The position numbers and the translations under genes are program-made. 53,066 bases of DNA from Bacillota bacterium (lineage in GTDB: Bacteria; Bacillota_I; Bacilli_A; RF39; UBA660), in contig SVAN01000001.1 of NCBI GenBank assembly GCA_015059375.1, forward strand, positions 84,179-137,244. Reading direction: 5' to 3'. A model generated the notes under the pieces. That model ran no database searches. It saw only the letters and a list, made by a program, of their open reading frames with translations, and was not told the origin of the DNA. Every line of letters starts with the position of its first letter. Position 1 is the first letter of the stretch. Shown piece after piece: positions 18,397-26,621 of this stretch.

Positions 18397-21225
18397 ATGG
18401 AAAATGATGTTATAAAGAATAAAGAAAGTTTAAAAGCTATCCTTTTTATTGGGATAACAACGATATTACTGATGGCAATAGGTGTATTTTTTGCATATGC
18501 CTATTTTGCTAATGACCCAAATATTCAAAATAATTTAGCGCTTAATGTAACGATTGAAGAGGGAATATCGGCAGAATTTACTGTAACAGGAGATGAAGAT
18601 TTAACAATTGATGTATCTGGCGATAAGATGTTAAATGATGGAATTGGCTCAGTAGCAGGAACAGATAATACCTCAATAACAGTTAATTTAACAAGTAGTT
18701 CACCGGTAATATGTACTTATGATTTAGTGTGGTCTTGGAATGACGATAGTCCTAATGAATACACAATTTCCACTGGTGCTACAAAAGAATTTACTATTCA
18801 AGGAACTGATGGAAGCAATACTATTGATGAAGTACAAGTAAGTAATTATGGGGCTAGTTTAGATTTAGGTTCTTATGAAATATTTACTTTGGGTGGAACA
18901 ATTATCCAAGATTGGAGCTTTATTGCTAATTTTTATAATGTTAATGTAGTTCAAGATAACCATGCCGGAGCTATTTATAGTGGTAAAATTGCAATACATA
19001 ATGCAGAGTGTGGTGGCCTAGATACAACACTTTCTGATGCTATTGTCACTTTATCTGCTTTAGGAGATCAAAGGTCTCAAAAAGATGGTAGTGTATATAA
19101 AGTAGAACATGAGATATTTACAGCTGCTGATGGTATAACACAAATCGATGCTGGTTATCGTTATGAAGGCGCTAACCCAGATAATTATGTGGAATATAAT
19201 GATGAATTATGGCGAATTATCGGAACTTTTGATGGTTCTGATGTTGGCCTTGAGGAAGGTAAACAATATACAAAGATAATCAGAAGCAATCCATTTAGCA
19301 CTGCATATCCATGGGATTGGGATGATATAAATGGTAATGGTTTGATTGACAGGGATGAATGGAGCGAGTTATGGGCTGATGCTTCATTAAATGCTTTATT
19401 AAATAATGATTATTTAAATCAAGCTGGTGAATTTTCTAGTACGTCTACGGATAAAGGTTTAAATGAAACTGCACGAAATATGATTGCTAAATTTAATAAT
19501 CAATATTCAAAGTGGTATACAAAAGGTTATCTGACAGGTAATACTCAAACTGCTAACGATTTTTATTCTGACGAAAGACAGAAAGGGTACTTATATACTG
19601 CAATAGGTTCAATGTATCCAAGCGATTATGGATATGCAATTTATGATGGTGGTAATGATGATTCATGTGTTTTTCCATCACGTGCTAATATGTCTTCATG
19701 TAAACAATATAATTGGTTATATCGTTCAGGTGTTAATCAATTGTTAATATCGTATGGTAAAATGGGAAGCCTACTAATTCCTTCGATGATTTCTTCTGAG
19801 GGTCAAGTAACAATGTATGATATTTCTACTTCTACTGCGTATTTTAGACCTGCATTATATTTAGAAGCGGATGTATTAATAATAAGTGGAAAAGGTTCAG
19901 AGGATGATCCATATAAAATTTATAAAAAAACCAAAGATAGCTCTTCTGATACCTTATCTGATACAATCTTAGCCTTAGCCAGTGGTATTGAGAGACAATC
20001 TGCTCAAACAAATGGCGGAGTATACCGAGTGGTTAGTCCTGAAGTAACCACCCCGAATTTTACAATATATAAAAATCTCACTCAGGATGAATATGGAAGT
20101 GTAGTAGAATATAAAGCTTCAGAAAGTGGTGCTTTACTTAGCGCTGGTACTTTAACATCAAACATATATACTTGGGATAGTAGCGAAGGTTTTTGGGAAA
20201 AAAGTTATGTTCGTGGAAATGATGGCGATTATTATAATCTTGTAATTCCAATTAAAGAAAGTGGTAATTATAGGTATTGCTTTTCAACTCACTATGGTAG
20301 TAGTAGTAATAAGTTAAAAGTATATATAACTGATGAAAATTCTAGTATTTATGCCAATTCCAAAAGTACCATTTCATTAACAAGTGTTGTTGGTAATGAT
20401 TGTCGTGGGTTAGGGGATATAACTGAGGGTCAGGGCGTGAGATTTGAATATATGAAGGGGGGAGCCTCAGGTACTGGCGTATCTATTACTTTACAAAAGA
20501 TGGAAGAAACCGTACCATTTGGAAATCCTGGTGTAAAATATCAAGGAAAAGATCCAAATAATTATGTGTTATTTAATAACGGAGAATTGTGGCGAATCAT
20601 TGGAACTTTTGAAGGAAGTACAATTGGTCTTGAGCAAGGTGAACATTATACTAAAATAATCAAGAGTGCTTCAATAGGAAATTACGAATGGGATAGTAGT
20701 ATTAGTACTACATGGCAAGATTCTGATTTAAATTATTACTTAACAAATAACTTGTATAATAATTTAAACGTTAATACTAAAGATATGATAGAATATGCAA
20801 CATGGCATTTAGGTAAAATTCAGAATGGAGATTATAATGCATCCGGGTACTATATCGAAGAAAGAGGAGCATCTGGTGGTATAATACCTCATCAAAACTA
20901 TATTGGTTTAATGAATCCAAGTGATTATGGATATGCAATGTATGCAGGAAATACAAATCATGATTGTACTATCGAAACATTAATTAGTAATTATAGCGCA
21001 TCTAAATATGGTTGTGTAAATTATGATTGGTTGTTTAACGGGGATGAATGGACAATATCTCCAATAAATCTTCGATCATCATTTATCGTAAGTGCGGATG
21101 GCGTAATAGGGATTGGAGGGAATGATACTGATGAATATGCTGTTCGTCCTGTTTTGTATCTTAAGTCTAATGTCAGTATTGAGGCAGGAGAAGGCACTTT
21201 ATCTTCACCATATATATTGAAATAG
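18397..21225 (+). CDS. Large secreted repeat protein, paralogue without variable codon signature
   Basis: The 942-residue protein starts with an anchor segment (about residues 14-34) and a TasA-like beta domain to about 215. Two scaffold units follow, recognisable by GSVYKV, LWRIIGTF, MYPSDYGYAIY / MNPSDYGYAMY and FRPALYLEA / VRPVLYLKS. The second unit is interrupted at about 553-708 by an extra beta-sandwich-like domain containing paired Cys. The ends of the units lack the GC-rich C-ending codons seen in the other gene, so they are not obvious hypervariable targets. There is no ribosome site before the ATG, and the promoter -10 lies 9 bases upstream. The short inverted repeat found after the other gene follows here too. 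Confidence 0.82.
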   Translation: MENDVIKNKESLKAILFIGITTILLMAIGVFFAYAYFANDPNIQNNLALNVTIEEGISAEFTVTGDEDLTIDVSGDKMLNDGIGSVAGTDNTSITVNLTSSSPVICTYDLVWSWNDDSPNEYTISTGATKEFTIQGTDGSNTIDEVQVSNYGASLDLGSYEIFTLGGTIIQDWSFIANFYNVNVVQDNHAGAIYSGKIAIHNAECGGLDTTLSDAIVTLSALGDQRSQKDGSVYKVEHEIFTAADGITQIDAGYRYEGANPDNYVEYNDELWRIIGTFDGSDVGLEEGKQYTKIIRSNPFSTAYPWDWDDINGNGLIDRDEWSELWADASLNALLNNDYLNQAGEFSSTSTDKGLNETARNMIAKFNNQYSKWYTKGYLTGNTQTANDFYSDERQKGYLYTAIGSMYPSDYGYAIYDGGNDDSCVFPSRANMSSCKQYNWLYRSGVNQLLISYGKMGSLLIPSMISSEGQVTMYDISTSTAYFRPALYLEADVLIISGKGSEDDPYKIYKKTKDSSSDTLSDTILALASGIERQSAQTNGGVYRVVSPEVTTPNFTIYKNLTQDEYGSVVEYKASESGALLSAGTLTSNIYTWDSSEGFWEKSYVRGNDGDYYNLVIPIKESGNYRYCFSTHYGSSSNKLKVYITDENSSIYANSKSTISLTSVVGNDCRGLGDITEGQGVRFEYMKGGASGTGVSITLQKMEETVPFGNPGVKYQGKDPNNYVLFNNGELWRIIGTFEGSTIGLEQGEHYTKIIKSASIGNYEWDSSISTTWQDSDLNYYLTNNLYNNLNVNTKDMIEYATWHLGKIQNGDYNASGYYIEERGASGGIIPHQNYIGLMNPSDYGYAMYAGNTNHDCTIETLISNYSASKYGCVNYDWLFNGDEWTISPINLRSSFIVSADGVIGIGGNDTDEYAVRPVLYLKSNVSIEAGEGTLSSPYILK

Positions 21226-22155: not shown

Positions 22156-22947
22156 ATGCTTACAATAAATTGGAAACAAATATATGAAATTGATAACAAA
22201 TGGATTTTAATACTATATGACATATCTAAAAATCATTATGTTGGACTACCAGTTTATAATGAAGAACAAGAAAATACAATTTTTATAAAATCTATAAATA
22301 AATATTTAGTATTAGATGAAATTGCTGATTATAATAGAACAAATATTAAAAGATGTATTTATATAAAAGTCAAACCATTAAAAATAAATAATAATGAATT
22401 TAATGGTATATTATTTAAATCAAAAGATTCTTTTCTAAATTATGTAAAAAGTAATACCGATAATACTGCTGATGGAATATCATATAATAAGTGGTGTAGA
22501 GACAAATTAGAATTAATGAAAAAAGAAAACACTGAAATAGATTTTAAAGCTGGAGCAATTTGTTGGGTAGATTTAGGTTATAATGTTGGAAATGAACTTC
22601 GTAAATTAAGACCAGCTATACTTTGGAGAAGCTCATCAAATAAAAAAATGTGGACAATTATTCCGTTAACTTCTAAACACAAAGAAGATAATTATTATTT
22701 CCATTATGATTTAGAATCTGAAAATCTTGGAGTTGCAAGAATAGAAAATTTAATCAATATAAGTTCTAATAGAATAAAAGAACCATATTTTATAAAAAAT
22801 AAAATAGGAACTATTACTAAAAAAGATAATGATAATATTCTGAAAATAATAAAAAAATATTATGCTTTTGAAGAAATAAATATAAAAAATACAACAGAAT
22901 TAAAACAAAGCAATCGTAAGGAAAAACGCGAAAAAGTATTGACGTGA
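22156..22947 (+). CDS. MazF/PemK-like toxin-fold protein with N-terminal extension
   Basis: The 263-residue protein has a C-terminal MazF/PemK fold at about residues 130-235: AGAICWVDLGYNVGNELRKL, then RPAILWRSS, TIIPLTSK and ARIENLINISSNRI. These parallel the R-P-x-x-I and P-I-T-S strands of MazF endoribonucleases. The first 120 residues (with NKWILILYD, YVGLPVY) have a similar strand rhythm and may be a degenerate second copy. Most MazF proteins are about 110 residues and have an adjacent antitoxin; none is certain here. It lies between two pieces of a DinD pseudogene. The start has GAAAGTTGG upstream. Confidence 0.65.
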   Translation: MLTINWKQIYEIDNKWILILYDISKNHYVGLPVYNEEQENTIFIKSINKYLVLDEIADYNRTNIKRCIYIKVKPLKINNNEFNGILFKSKDSFLNYVKSNTDNTADGISYNKWCRDKLELMKKENTEIDFKAGAICWVDLGYNVGNELRKLRPAILWRSSSNKKMWTIIPLTSKHKEDNYYFHYDLESENLGVARIENLINISSNRIKEPYFIKNKIGTITKKDNDNILKIIKKYYAFEEINIKNTTELKQSNRKEKREKVLT

Positions 22948-23298: not shown

Positions 23299-23515
23299 AA
23301 TCTTTAAAAGATTATGAACAAGACGAAGTTATTTGGAAGTTTTAAAAGAGAGCTAGGATAGGTGAAAGCTAGCAGATGAAAAAGTAACTTAGATCACTTG
23401 GGAATTGCTTATTTAAGTAAATAGAATAAGACGTAATCTCGCGTTAAGAGAATAAAGAAACAATTAAGGTGGTACCGCGGATAATAATCGCCCTTAGGTA
23501 ACCATCTTTTTTTAT
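23299..23515 (+). promoter_or_regulatory. T-box riboswitch, isoleucine specifier
   Basis: The leader holds the stem I landmark AGAGAGCTAGGATAGGTGAA followed by AAGCTAGC, a specifier ATC at 23,393-23,395 (Ile), and the T-box core AAGGTGGTACCGCGG at about 23,467-23,481. The core can pair within an antiterminator. The competing terminator uses GGTAACCATC followed by seven T residues near 23,498-23,515. Uncharged tRNA-Ile should stabilise antitermination and allow ileS expression. Confidence 0.93.
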
Positions 23516-23525
23516 TGGAGGGAAT

Positions 23526-26500
23526 ATGAAAAATTTTAAGGAATTAGACAAAAGACCAGTTAGCGAAGTTGAAGCAAGTATTTCTACTTCTTGGGAAAGT
23601 ATTAATGCTATGCATGATGCTCAAAATAAGAAAAATGAAAATAACGAAACTTTTGTTTTTTATGATGGGCCAGCATTTGCCAATGGCTTTCCAGGGCTTC
23701 ATCATATGGTATCTAAAAATTTAAAAGATACAGTTACTAAATATCATGTAATGAATGGTAAAAAAGTAATTAGAAAAATTGGTTGGGATACACATGGACT
23801 TCCGATTGAAAATCATGTTGAAAAGAAACTGGGTATTTCATCAAAGAAGGAAATTGAAGCTTTAGGAATTGAAAAATTTAATGAAGAATGTCGGAAAAGT
23901 GTTAGAGCTAATGAAGATGCATTTACAAACTTAACTTCAAAAATGGGACAATTTTTTGATGTTGAAAATCCATATTTAACTTATAAAAATGATTATATTG
24001 AAACTGAATGGTGGATTTTAAAAGAAATGTTTAAAAAAGATATGTTCTATGAAGGAACAAGGGTAGTTCCTTATTGTCCTCATTGTGGAACTGGTCTTGC
24101 TACTCATGAAGTTGCGCAAAATTACCAAACTGATACGGCAATAACTGTTTATGTTCCATTTAAAAAGAAGGATGAAGATGTTTACTTTTTAGTTTGGACT
24201 ACAACACCATGGACATTAATTGCTAACGTTGCTTTATGTGTTAATCCTAATGAAGAATATGCTTTAGTAGAATCTAAAGGTACTAAGTTTATTTTAGCCA
24301 AAAGTTTAGTAGAAAAGGTTTTAGGAGAAGAAGCAAATATTCTTGAATCTTTCAAAGGTAAAGATTTAGAATATACTGAGTATGAACAATTAATTCCATC
24401 TTTCGAAGTAGATAAGAAAGCTTTCTTTGTAACTTGTGATAATTATGTAACGATGGAAGATGGTACAGGTATTGTTCATATTGCTCCAGCATTTGGTGAA
24501 GATGATGCTCAAGTAGGTAAAAAATATGATTTACCATATTTAAATCCAGTTGGAAAAGATGGTTGTTATACAGGAGGAATGTGGGAAGGTAAGTTTGTTC
24601 ATGATGCAAATGAAGAGGTTGTAACTTACTTAAAAGAAAATGATAAGTTATTTAAAAAACAAAAACTTGCTCATGAATATCCTCATTGCTGGCGTTGTGA
24701 TACTGCATTAATTTATTATTCAATGCCAAGTTATTATATAAAGGTAAGTGAAATGACTGATGACTTAGTTAAAGCTAATGCAAATGTTAATTGGTATCCA
24801 GCTTATGTTGGTGAAAAAAGATTTGCTAATTGGCTAGCTAATGCACGTGATTGGAATGTATCTCGTTCTCGTTATTGGGGAAGTCCAATTCCATATTGGA
24901 AATGTGAATGCGGTCATGCACATATGGTTGGTTCTGTTGAGGAACTTAAAAAAATGGCTACTTGTGAAATTGGTGAGGATTTTGATTTACATAAACCATA
25001 TATTGATAACGTTCATTTAACTTGTGAAAAATGTGGTAAAGAAATGACTCGGATTCCTGATGTTTTAGATTGTTGGTTCGACTCTGGGGCAATGCCTTTT
25101 GCTCAATATCATTATCCATTTGAAAATCAAGAACTTTGGGAAAATCAATTTCCAGCCGACTTCATTTGCGAAGGAATTGACCAAACACGTGGTTGGTTTT
25201 ATACATTAATGGTAATATCAACCTTTGTTAAAGGTTGTTCACCATTTAAAAATGTTTTAGTAAATGACTTATTACTTGATGCAAATGGCAAGAAGATGAG
25301 TAAAAGTCGTGGTAATATCGTGGAACCATTTAGTACAATTGAAAAGTATGGTGCTGATACGGTAAGATTCTATTTACCTTATGTGTCTGCAGTATGGACT
25401 CCACTTAAATTTGATATGGAAGGTTTAAAAGAAGTTTATTCTAAATTCTTTAATCCTCTTAAAAATACTTATAGCTTCTTTGCGATGTATGCTAATATCG
25501 ATGAAATTGATACAAATGACTGTTATGTAGAATATGAAAATCGTGAAGAAATTGATAAATGGTTACTTTCAAAATATCATCGTTTAGTTAAAGATGTTCG
25601 TGCTGCTTTTGATGAATATGATTTAAATAAAGTAGTTCATTATTTATCAAATTTTGTATCCGAAGATTTATCTAACTGGTATATTCGCAGAAATCGTAAT
25701 CGTTTCTGGGGTAGTACTTTAGATAATTCAAAGAAGAGTGTTTATATTACAACATATGAAGTATTAGTAGGCTTATCTAAATTAATTGCGCCGATTGTAC
25801 CTTTTGTATCCGAGGAATTGTATCGTAATTTAACTGGCGAAGCATCAGTTCATTTAGCGGATTATCCTGCTTTTGATGAAAGTATAATTGATGAAAGTTT
25901 AGAAAAGAAAATGGATTTAGTTCGAAGTATTATTTCTATTGGCCGCTATGTTCGGGAAGAAAATAAAATAAAGGTTCGTCAACCACTTTCTGAAGGTTTG
26001 ATTGATGGTAAAAATAAGGAAGTACTTAGCGATGTAGTTAATCTTATTATGGAAGAGTTAAATGTTAAAAAAGTAACCTTTGCTGAGGATTTAAATACAT
26101 ATATGAACTTTACAATTAAACCTAATTTCAAAGAAGTTGGTAAAGTATTTGGTAAAAATATGGGAGAATACCAAAAGAAACTTGCAGAACTTGATTCAAG
26201 TGATATTAATACATTACAAAACGGTGAAAATATTAAAATGATTATTGCTGGTGAAGAATATGATATTAGTCCATCCATGGTTGAAATCCGTTATGATGCT
26301 AAAGAAGGCTTTAATGTAGGAATGGAAAATGGTAATTTCATTATTCTTGATACGAGAATTACTGATGAACTTAAAATGGAAGGTAATGCTCGAGAATTTG
26401 TTTCGAAAGTTCAAGCGTTACGTAAAGATAATAACTTTGATATTGCTGATCGAATCATTACTACTTATAATGCTGATGATGAATTTGCTAAAGCAATCGA

Positions 26501-26621
26501 AGCAAATACTGACTATGTTAAAAATGAAACACTTTCTATTGAGCTCGTAAAAGATGAAATGATAGAAAAAGATTTAACATTAAATGATTATGCAGTTGGT
26601 ATTAAATTAGAAAGAAAATAA
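23526..26621 (+). CDS. ileS: Isoleucyl-tRNA synthetase, type 2-like, with swapped HIGH motif
   Basis: The 1,031-residue enzyme charges tRNA-Ile. The catalytic core shows DGPAFANGFPGLHHM at about residues 47-61, GWDTHGLPIEN, the editing-domain TTTPWTLIANVAL, ARDWNVSRSRYWGSPIPYW, and KMSKS at residues 590-594. The class I HIGH motif is Gly57-Leu-His-His60 in place of H-x-G-H, a known swap in some type 2 bacterial IleRS that are very resistant to mupirocin. The extended C-terminal domain and length fit the eukaryote-like type 2 group. The start has GGAGGG upstream. A T-box controls it, and a bidirectional terminator follows. Confidence 0.96.
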   Translation: MKNFKELDKRPVSEVEASISTSWESINAMHDAQNKKNENNETFVFYDGPAFANGFPGLHHMVSKNLKDTVTKYHVMNGKKVIRKIGWDTHGLPIENHVEKKLGISSKKEIEALGIEKFNEECRKSVRANEDAFTNLTSKMGQFFDVENPYLTYKNDYIETEWWILKEMFKKDMFYEGTRVVPYCPHCGTGLATHEVAQNYQTDTAITVYVPFKKKDEDVYFLVWTTTPWTLIANVALCVNPNEEYALVESKGTKFILAKSLVEKVLGEEANILESFKGKDLEYTEYEQLIPSFEVDKKAFFVTCDNYVTMEDGTGIVHIAPAFGEDDAQVGKKYDLPYLNPVGKDGCYTGGMWEGKFVHDANEEVVTYLKENDKLFKKQKLAHEYPHCWRCDTALIYYSMPSYYIKVSEMTDDLVKANANVNWYPAYVGEKRFANWLANARDWNVSRSRYWGSPIPYWKCECGHAHMVGSVEELKKMATCEIGEDFDLHKPYIDNVHLTCEKCGKEMTRIPDVLDCWFDSGAMPFAQYHYPFENQELWENQFPADFICEGIDQTRGWFYTLMVISTFVKGCSPFKNVLVNDLLLDANGKKMSKSRGNIVEPFSTIEKYGADTVRFYLPYVSAVWTPLKFDMEGLKEVYSKFFNPLKNTYSFFAMYANIDEIDTNDCYVEYENREEIDKWLLSKYHRLVKDVRAAFDEYDLNKVVHYLSNFVSEDLSNWYIRRNRNRFWGSTLDNSKKSVYITTYEVLVGLSKLIAPIVPFVSEELYRNLTGEASVHLADYPAFDESIIDESLEKKMDLVRSIISIGRYVREENKIKVRQPLSEGLIDGKNKEVLSDVVNLIMEELNVKKVTFAEDLNTYMNFTIKPNFKEVGKVFGKNMGEYQKKLAELDSSDINTLQNGENIKMIIAGEEYDISPSMVEIRYDAKEGFNVGMENGNFIILDTRITDELKMEGNAREFVSKVQALRKDNNFDIADRIITTYNADDEFAKAIEANTDYVKNETLSIELVKDEMIEKDLTLNDYAVGIKLERK

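Follow-up and report, generated by a model that had tools for sequence, protein, structure and literature searches.

In class I synthetases the first signature motif is expected to read HxGH, and the isoleucyl-tRNA synthetase (IleRS) gene studied here reads GLHH at that place. The gene lies in a stretch of 53,066 nucleotides (the window) from a Bacillota genome, contig SVAN01000001.1. The question raised by this locus is whether such a protein is an artefact, a resistance gene carried beside an ordinary IleRS, or the enzyme that normally serves the cell. Our reading, which we hold to be very probable, is that it is the housekeeping, and probably the only, IleRS of small-genome gut Bacilli. It is a type-2 enzyme of the GXHH kind, with catalysis by His59 and hyper-resistance to mupirocin assigned by homology and with expression set by a T-box leader. 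The features of the locus are collected in Table 1.

Table 1. Features of the ileS locus, in positions of the window.
Feature	Position	Strand	Basis
T-box leader RNA, upstream of ileS	23305..23498	+	RF00230 (Rfam) matched end to end (1-219), 95.0 bits
Specifier codon of the T-box, ATC (Ile), with A after it	23393..23395	+	Aligned specifier loop
AAGGTGGTACCGCGG, T-box sequence (antiterminator bulge that pairs with the end of uncharged tRNA)	23466..23480	+	Direct reading and Rfam alignment
ileS, type-2 isoleucyl-tRNA synthetase, 1031 aa	23526..26621	+	TIGR00392, 938 bits; P. megaterium IleRS2 are the best PDB matches; dN/dS 0.08-0.17
Class I signature motif 1, swapped: GLHH, aa 57-60	23694..23705	+	Translation; codons GGG CTT CAT CAT
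Class I signature motif 2: KMSKS, aa 590-594	25293..25307	+	Translation; many relatives have His at 592 (KMHKS)
C-terminal DUF5915 domain, aa 839-1030, type-2 IleRS tRNA-binding tail	26040..26615	+	PF19302, 172 bits

The swapped motif and the type of the enzyme

An earlier reading made from the sequence only had reported GLHH at residues 57-60 (within positions 23690-23710) of an otherwise complete IleRS with KMSKS at residues 590-594, and the translation bears out both points. The swapped motif is found in the context FYDGPAFANGFPGLHHMVSKNL, within an open frame that scores above the cut-off of 621 bits of the TIGR00392 ileS profile and has the architecture of an IleRS, with matches to PF00133 and PF08264. 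With Gly in first place and His in third and fourth, the motif falls within the G/AXHH pattern of Brkic et al. (2023).

The window enzyme is a type-2 IleRS. Its C-terminus is the type-2 anticodon-binding domain and not the zinc-binding type-1 tail, as indicated by PF19302 and by a near full-length match to the IleRS2 of P. megaterium. When PDB sequences were searched, four entries of this IleRS2 were the best matches, C-terminal domain included. The top fold match of the predicted structure was 8c8w, the mupirocin hyper-resistant GVHH mutant of the same P. megaterium enzyme. The AlphaFold model, built from a shallow alignment of 26 rows, had low confidence over a large part of the catalytic core (about 40-58 as block means at residues 511-560 and 571-600) and served for the overall fold only. 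In the tree, the window's IleRS is found with IleRS2, split from the five IleRS1 rows at 100/100. Besides, two of the residues named as IleRS1-specific mupirocin contacts, Asn70 and Phe586 (PMC10485003), are replaced at the aligned places by Ser63 and Leu582. We gave up the idea of a strict link between residue 582 and the swapped motif, as Leu is also found in four non-redundant HXGH type-2 enzymes.

In a non-redundant set (reduced to 95% identity) the GXHH class contained 186 IleRS2, namely 183 kin of the window's enzyme, that of Acetoanaerobium and two from Bacteroidota. G-x-H-H was present in all of them (186/186), in the form G[LIV]HH in the 183 kin, with no reversion. The HXGH enzymes of the same set were 44, 28 of them IleRS1 and 16 IleRS2.

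Since the window belongs to a metagenome-assembled genome, the odd motif could be thought to stem from an error in sequencing or in the frame, or from a decaying gene with an inactive product; we give this practically no credit. The frame is open over 1031 codons, and the dN/dS values between the window and six close relatives (Table 1) indicate that ileS is under strong purifying selection. GXHH is kept by the 183 non-redundant kin, which by itself already refutes this alternative, and it recurs in assemblies made independently from samples of rabbit, goat, sheep, deer and rumen. In the same genome, other synthetases keep canonical motifs; specifically, ValRS and LeuRS have the ordinary HIGH and HAGH, and the oddity is thus seen in IleRS alone. 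Moreover, going from HxGH to GxHH takes several base changes in two codons, which together with these canonical synthetases and the constancy of the motif throughout the GXHH class leaves, in practice, no room for a sequencing error. Among the relatives, one ileS (L279, in G179) has an in-frame TGA that is probably an assembly error.

Copy number in the family and the T-box leader

The genome of the window (1.01 Mb, 72% complete) contains one IleRS. The further matches look like ValRS, LeuRS and probably MetRS, and a second IleRS was searched for in this assembly without success. It could be argued that the GLHH protein is a secondary enzyme of the resistance type, next to a canonical IleRS1 that is absent from the incomplete assembly, and in some Bacillaceae both types do co-occur (PMC10485003). 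We consider this very unlikely, since the relatives give a different picture. We sampled 146 genomes of the window's order, all of the same family. A match at E <= 1e-70 was obtained in 140 of them, most at least 90% complete, and every one of the 140 had exactly one IleRS of either type: 126 a window-like IleRS2, 12 an IleRS1 and 2 a divergent type-2-like enzyme. The two types were never found together in these 140 genomes; therefore the family uses IleRS2 or IleRS1, and never both in the sample. The isoleucine T-box upstream of the gene, as is typical for a housekeeping ileS, also speaks against a secondary role. The suggestion that this is possibly the only IleRS of the organism is thereby supported.

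All the window-like enzymes of the family sample in which the motif could be read were GXHH. A canonical IleRS1 replaces the GXHH IleRS2 in the 12 genomes mentioned (e.g. G011, G054, G059 and G106), implying that one IleRS type has been swapped for the other within the family. The named contigs of the relatives belong to MAGs labelled 'Bacilli', 'Tenericutes' or 'Erysipelotrichaceae', many from the guts of goat, rabbit and other herbivores. These hosts and the size of the genome would suit an RF39-like group. A viral copy was rejected, as no relative turned up in viral contigs.

As for the regulation, control of ileS by a T-box is near-universal in Firmicutes (PMC2494555). The sequence-only reading had described the gene as T-box-controlled, and at the level of the leader sequence this is confirmed, the RF00230 fold and an Ile specifier being found together upstream of ileS. 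The leader would sense uncharged tRNA-Ile via its AUC specifier and in this way set the expression of the gene. The specifier column was ATC in 53/53 aligned T-box leaders, 38 preceding GXHH IleRS2 and 15 preceding IleRS1. The Rfam scan of the upstream regions of relatives passed the threshold at 10/14 loci, and a plain text pattern missed the T-box motif before many other loci, so the presence of the leader in all relatives is not claimed.

Just 5' of the T-box (22156-22947) the window codes for a protein of 263 aa whose C-terminal part is a PemK/MazF-like domain; the relatives examined did not have it close to ileS. Further upstream (18397-21225) lies an open frame of 942 aa, for which Pfam gave nothing at E <= 0.001.

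Inheritance of GXHH and variation in both motifs

The sequence-only reading had proposed an IleRS tree with GxHH members. In the tree that we built, the GXHH enzymes of the family, the window's included, and the GIHH enzyme of the clostridial Acetoanaerobium form one clade at 100/100. A second group (82-88 bootstrap) unites MupA (HAGH) with canonical type-2 IleRS, which come from three further families of Bacilli and from Sutcliffiella and Paenibacillus plasmids. With the Bacteroidota enzymes included, a single GXHH clade was not rejected (AU p 0.076). Nothing here therefore points to a separate new origin, and a fresh lineage-specific appearance of GXHH was rejected; the motif is inherited within a clade shared with Clostridia. 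Kinship with MupA was also rejected: this protein has HAGH and falls in a separate clade, and the window protein scored 867 and 826 bits for MupA/MupB, below the curated cut-off of 1900.

The second motif varies within the GXHH class. KMHKS and not KMSKS was found in 54/186 rows (about 30%; L064, L065, L067, L071, L170 and L188 among others, at residue 592 in window numbering) and in 0/44 of the HXGH enzymes. One of the 54 (L062) looks chimeric and was excluded from the trees; it matches the window type to about residue 540 and the KMHKS type (L255) after it, either by recombination or as an assembly chimera. In trees made with the motif columns excluded, the Ser/His state changed at least 8 times over 122 rows and 7 times over 48 rows, and a single KMHKS clade was rejected (AU p 5e-5). 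The Ser and His codons at this site are two bases apart. None of the papers searched uses 'KMHKS' in this sense. In these sequences, the confinement of KMHKS to a GXHH background is suggestive, because one GXHH clade is set against a small sample of HXGH enzymes. We put forward tentatively, and with rather more doubt than belief, that KMHKS could arise once the first motif had been swapped; its gains or losses would number at least 7-8, always on GXHH in this sample, the two being inseparable on trees without a trusted root. The KMSKS of the window may itself be a reversion. If KMHKS is functional, both class I signatures would be altered and the catalytic motifs would be evolving in a coupled fashion.

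Other motif variants were found along the way. Three very divergent type-2-like IleRS have KIHH (L208 and L209, in G215 and G093) or GMHH (L210, in G410) as first motif, with KFSKT or RFSKT as second motif. KIHH is not within the published G/AXHH pattern, and this enzyme is the only IleRS found in G093 and G215. Two IleRS1 also depart from the canonical motifs, one with HIGT for HIGH (L135, in G107) and another with KQSKS for KMSKS (L130, in G142); both could be assembly errors. In another family of the same class (f8), two type-2 IleRS have KMSKH as second motif; the first motif is HVGH in one (L201), and the other (L198) is truncated there.

Predicted mupirocin resistance and comparison with known systems

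Brkic et al. (2023; PMC10485003) found G/AXHH in many IleRS2 and in no IleRS1. These enzymes have motif positions 1 and 3 exchanged, are active and show millimolar Ki for mupirocin, the swapped motif giving up to 10^3-fold higher values. The ALHH IleRS2 of D. radiodurans has a Ki of 6.6 mM that drops 823-fold once HVGH is restored. Putting GVHH into two canonical IleRS2 gave a gain in Ki of roughly 200- to 430-fold at a modest catalytic cost, and no catalytic cost was reported in a naturally non-canonical IleRS2. What the sequence-only reading had stated about type 2 enzymes with a swapped HIGH, resistant to mupirocin yet active, is right according to this work.

The same authors describe that in type-2 enzymes the tip of the helix is displaced, that the third-position His, beside the adenine, replaces the first His, and that it clashes with mupirocin (PMC10485003). 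By homology, His59 (the third position) would take over in the window's enzyme the transition-state role of the absent first His, something that it could do because the type-2 active site moves the helix tip off the adenine. His59 would also collide with bound mupirocin, making the enzyme hyper-resistant. For carrying the resistance over we checked that the enzyme is of type 2, that the swap is genuine and conserved, and that the gene is the sole copy found, selected and under an isoleucine T-box. Its place as the sole IleRS found and the dN/dS values would indirectly favour an active enzyme. As the enzyme is confirmed as type 2 and its motif is conserved, we infer that the enzyme and its organism are resistant to mupirocin.

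Selection for the swap may have come from something other than mupirocin. The enzyme could be what we have described and the swap be a neutral inheritance, or be kept by some other factor (another IleRS inhibitor, an altered catalytic trade-off), with resistance as a by-product. We take this as a serious possibility, to which we give a little less than an even chance. GXHH is fixed across many gut genera without reversion, it predates the split from the clostridial enzyme and therefore does not track recent exposure, and a naturally non-canonical enzyme can bear it without catalytic cost (Brkic et al., 2023; PMC10485003). On the other hand, the present data point to no other selective agent, and it is to mupirocin resistance that the motif has been tied experimentally (PMC10485003). 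In any case, this alternative concerns why the swap persists and leaves the identity of the enzyme unchanged.

Under our preferred reading, of a housekeeping GXHH IleRS2, a published rewrite of a catalytic motif linked to resistance is extended to a large and mostly uncultured gut lineage, where the swapped-motif IleRS would be the established housekeeping enzyme rather than a resistance gene that was acquired. Intrinsic mupirocin resistance is predicted across many gut Bacilli. The family also provides dozens of natural variants (KMHKS doubles, close IleRS1 users) for probing the tolerance of class I enzymes to changes in both motifs.

The swap, its effect on resistance and its mechanism are already published (Brkic et al., 2023); new here is the lineage, a gut Bacilli family that is not named in the main text of that paper. 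The IleRS2 of Streptomyces griseus and Deinococcus radiodurans have in common with the window's enzyme the type 2, the swapped positions 1 and 3 and an intact KMSKS, and all of them can be the only IleRS. The window's enzyme differs in coming from another lineage, in having G where D. radiodurans has A at motif position 1, and in the control by an Ile T-box, a word absent from the text of Brkic et al. (2023). The window's enzyme is nearest to that of Acetoanaerobium noterae (L214, GIHH), which is 52% identical over the full length and also combines GXHH with KMSKS, in this case in Clostridia. MupA, the mupirocin-resistant IleRS of staphylococcal plasmids (L218), is of type 2 and about 40% identical, but keeps the canonical HAGH. 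The IleRS2 of P. megaterium (8c8u, 8c8v), again with about 40% identity, has HVGH in the wild type, whereas its GVHH mutant (8c8w) carries the same swapped motif as the window's enzyme.
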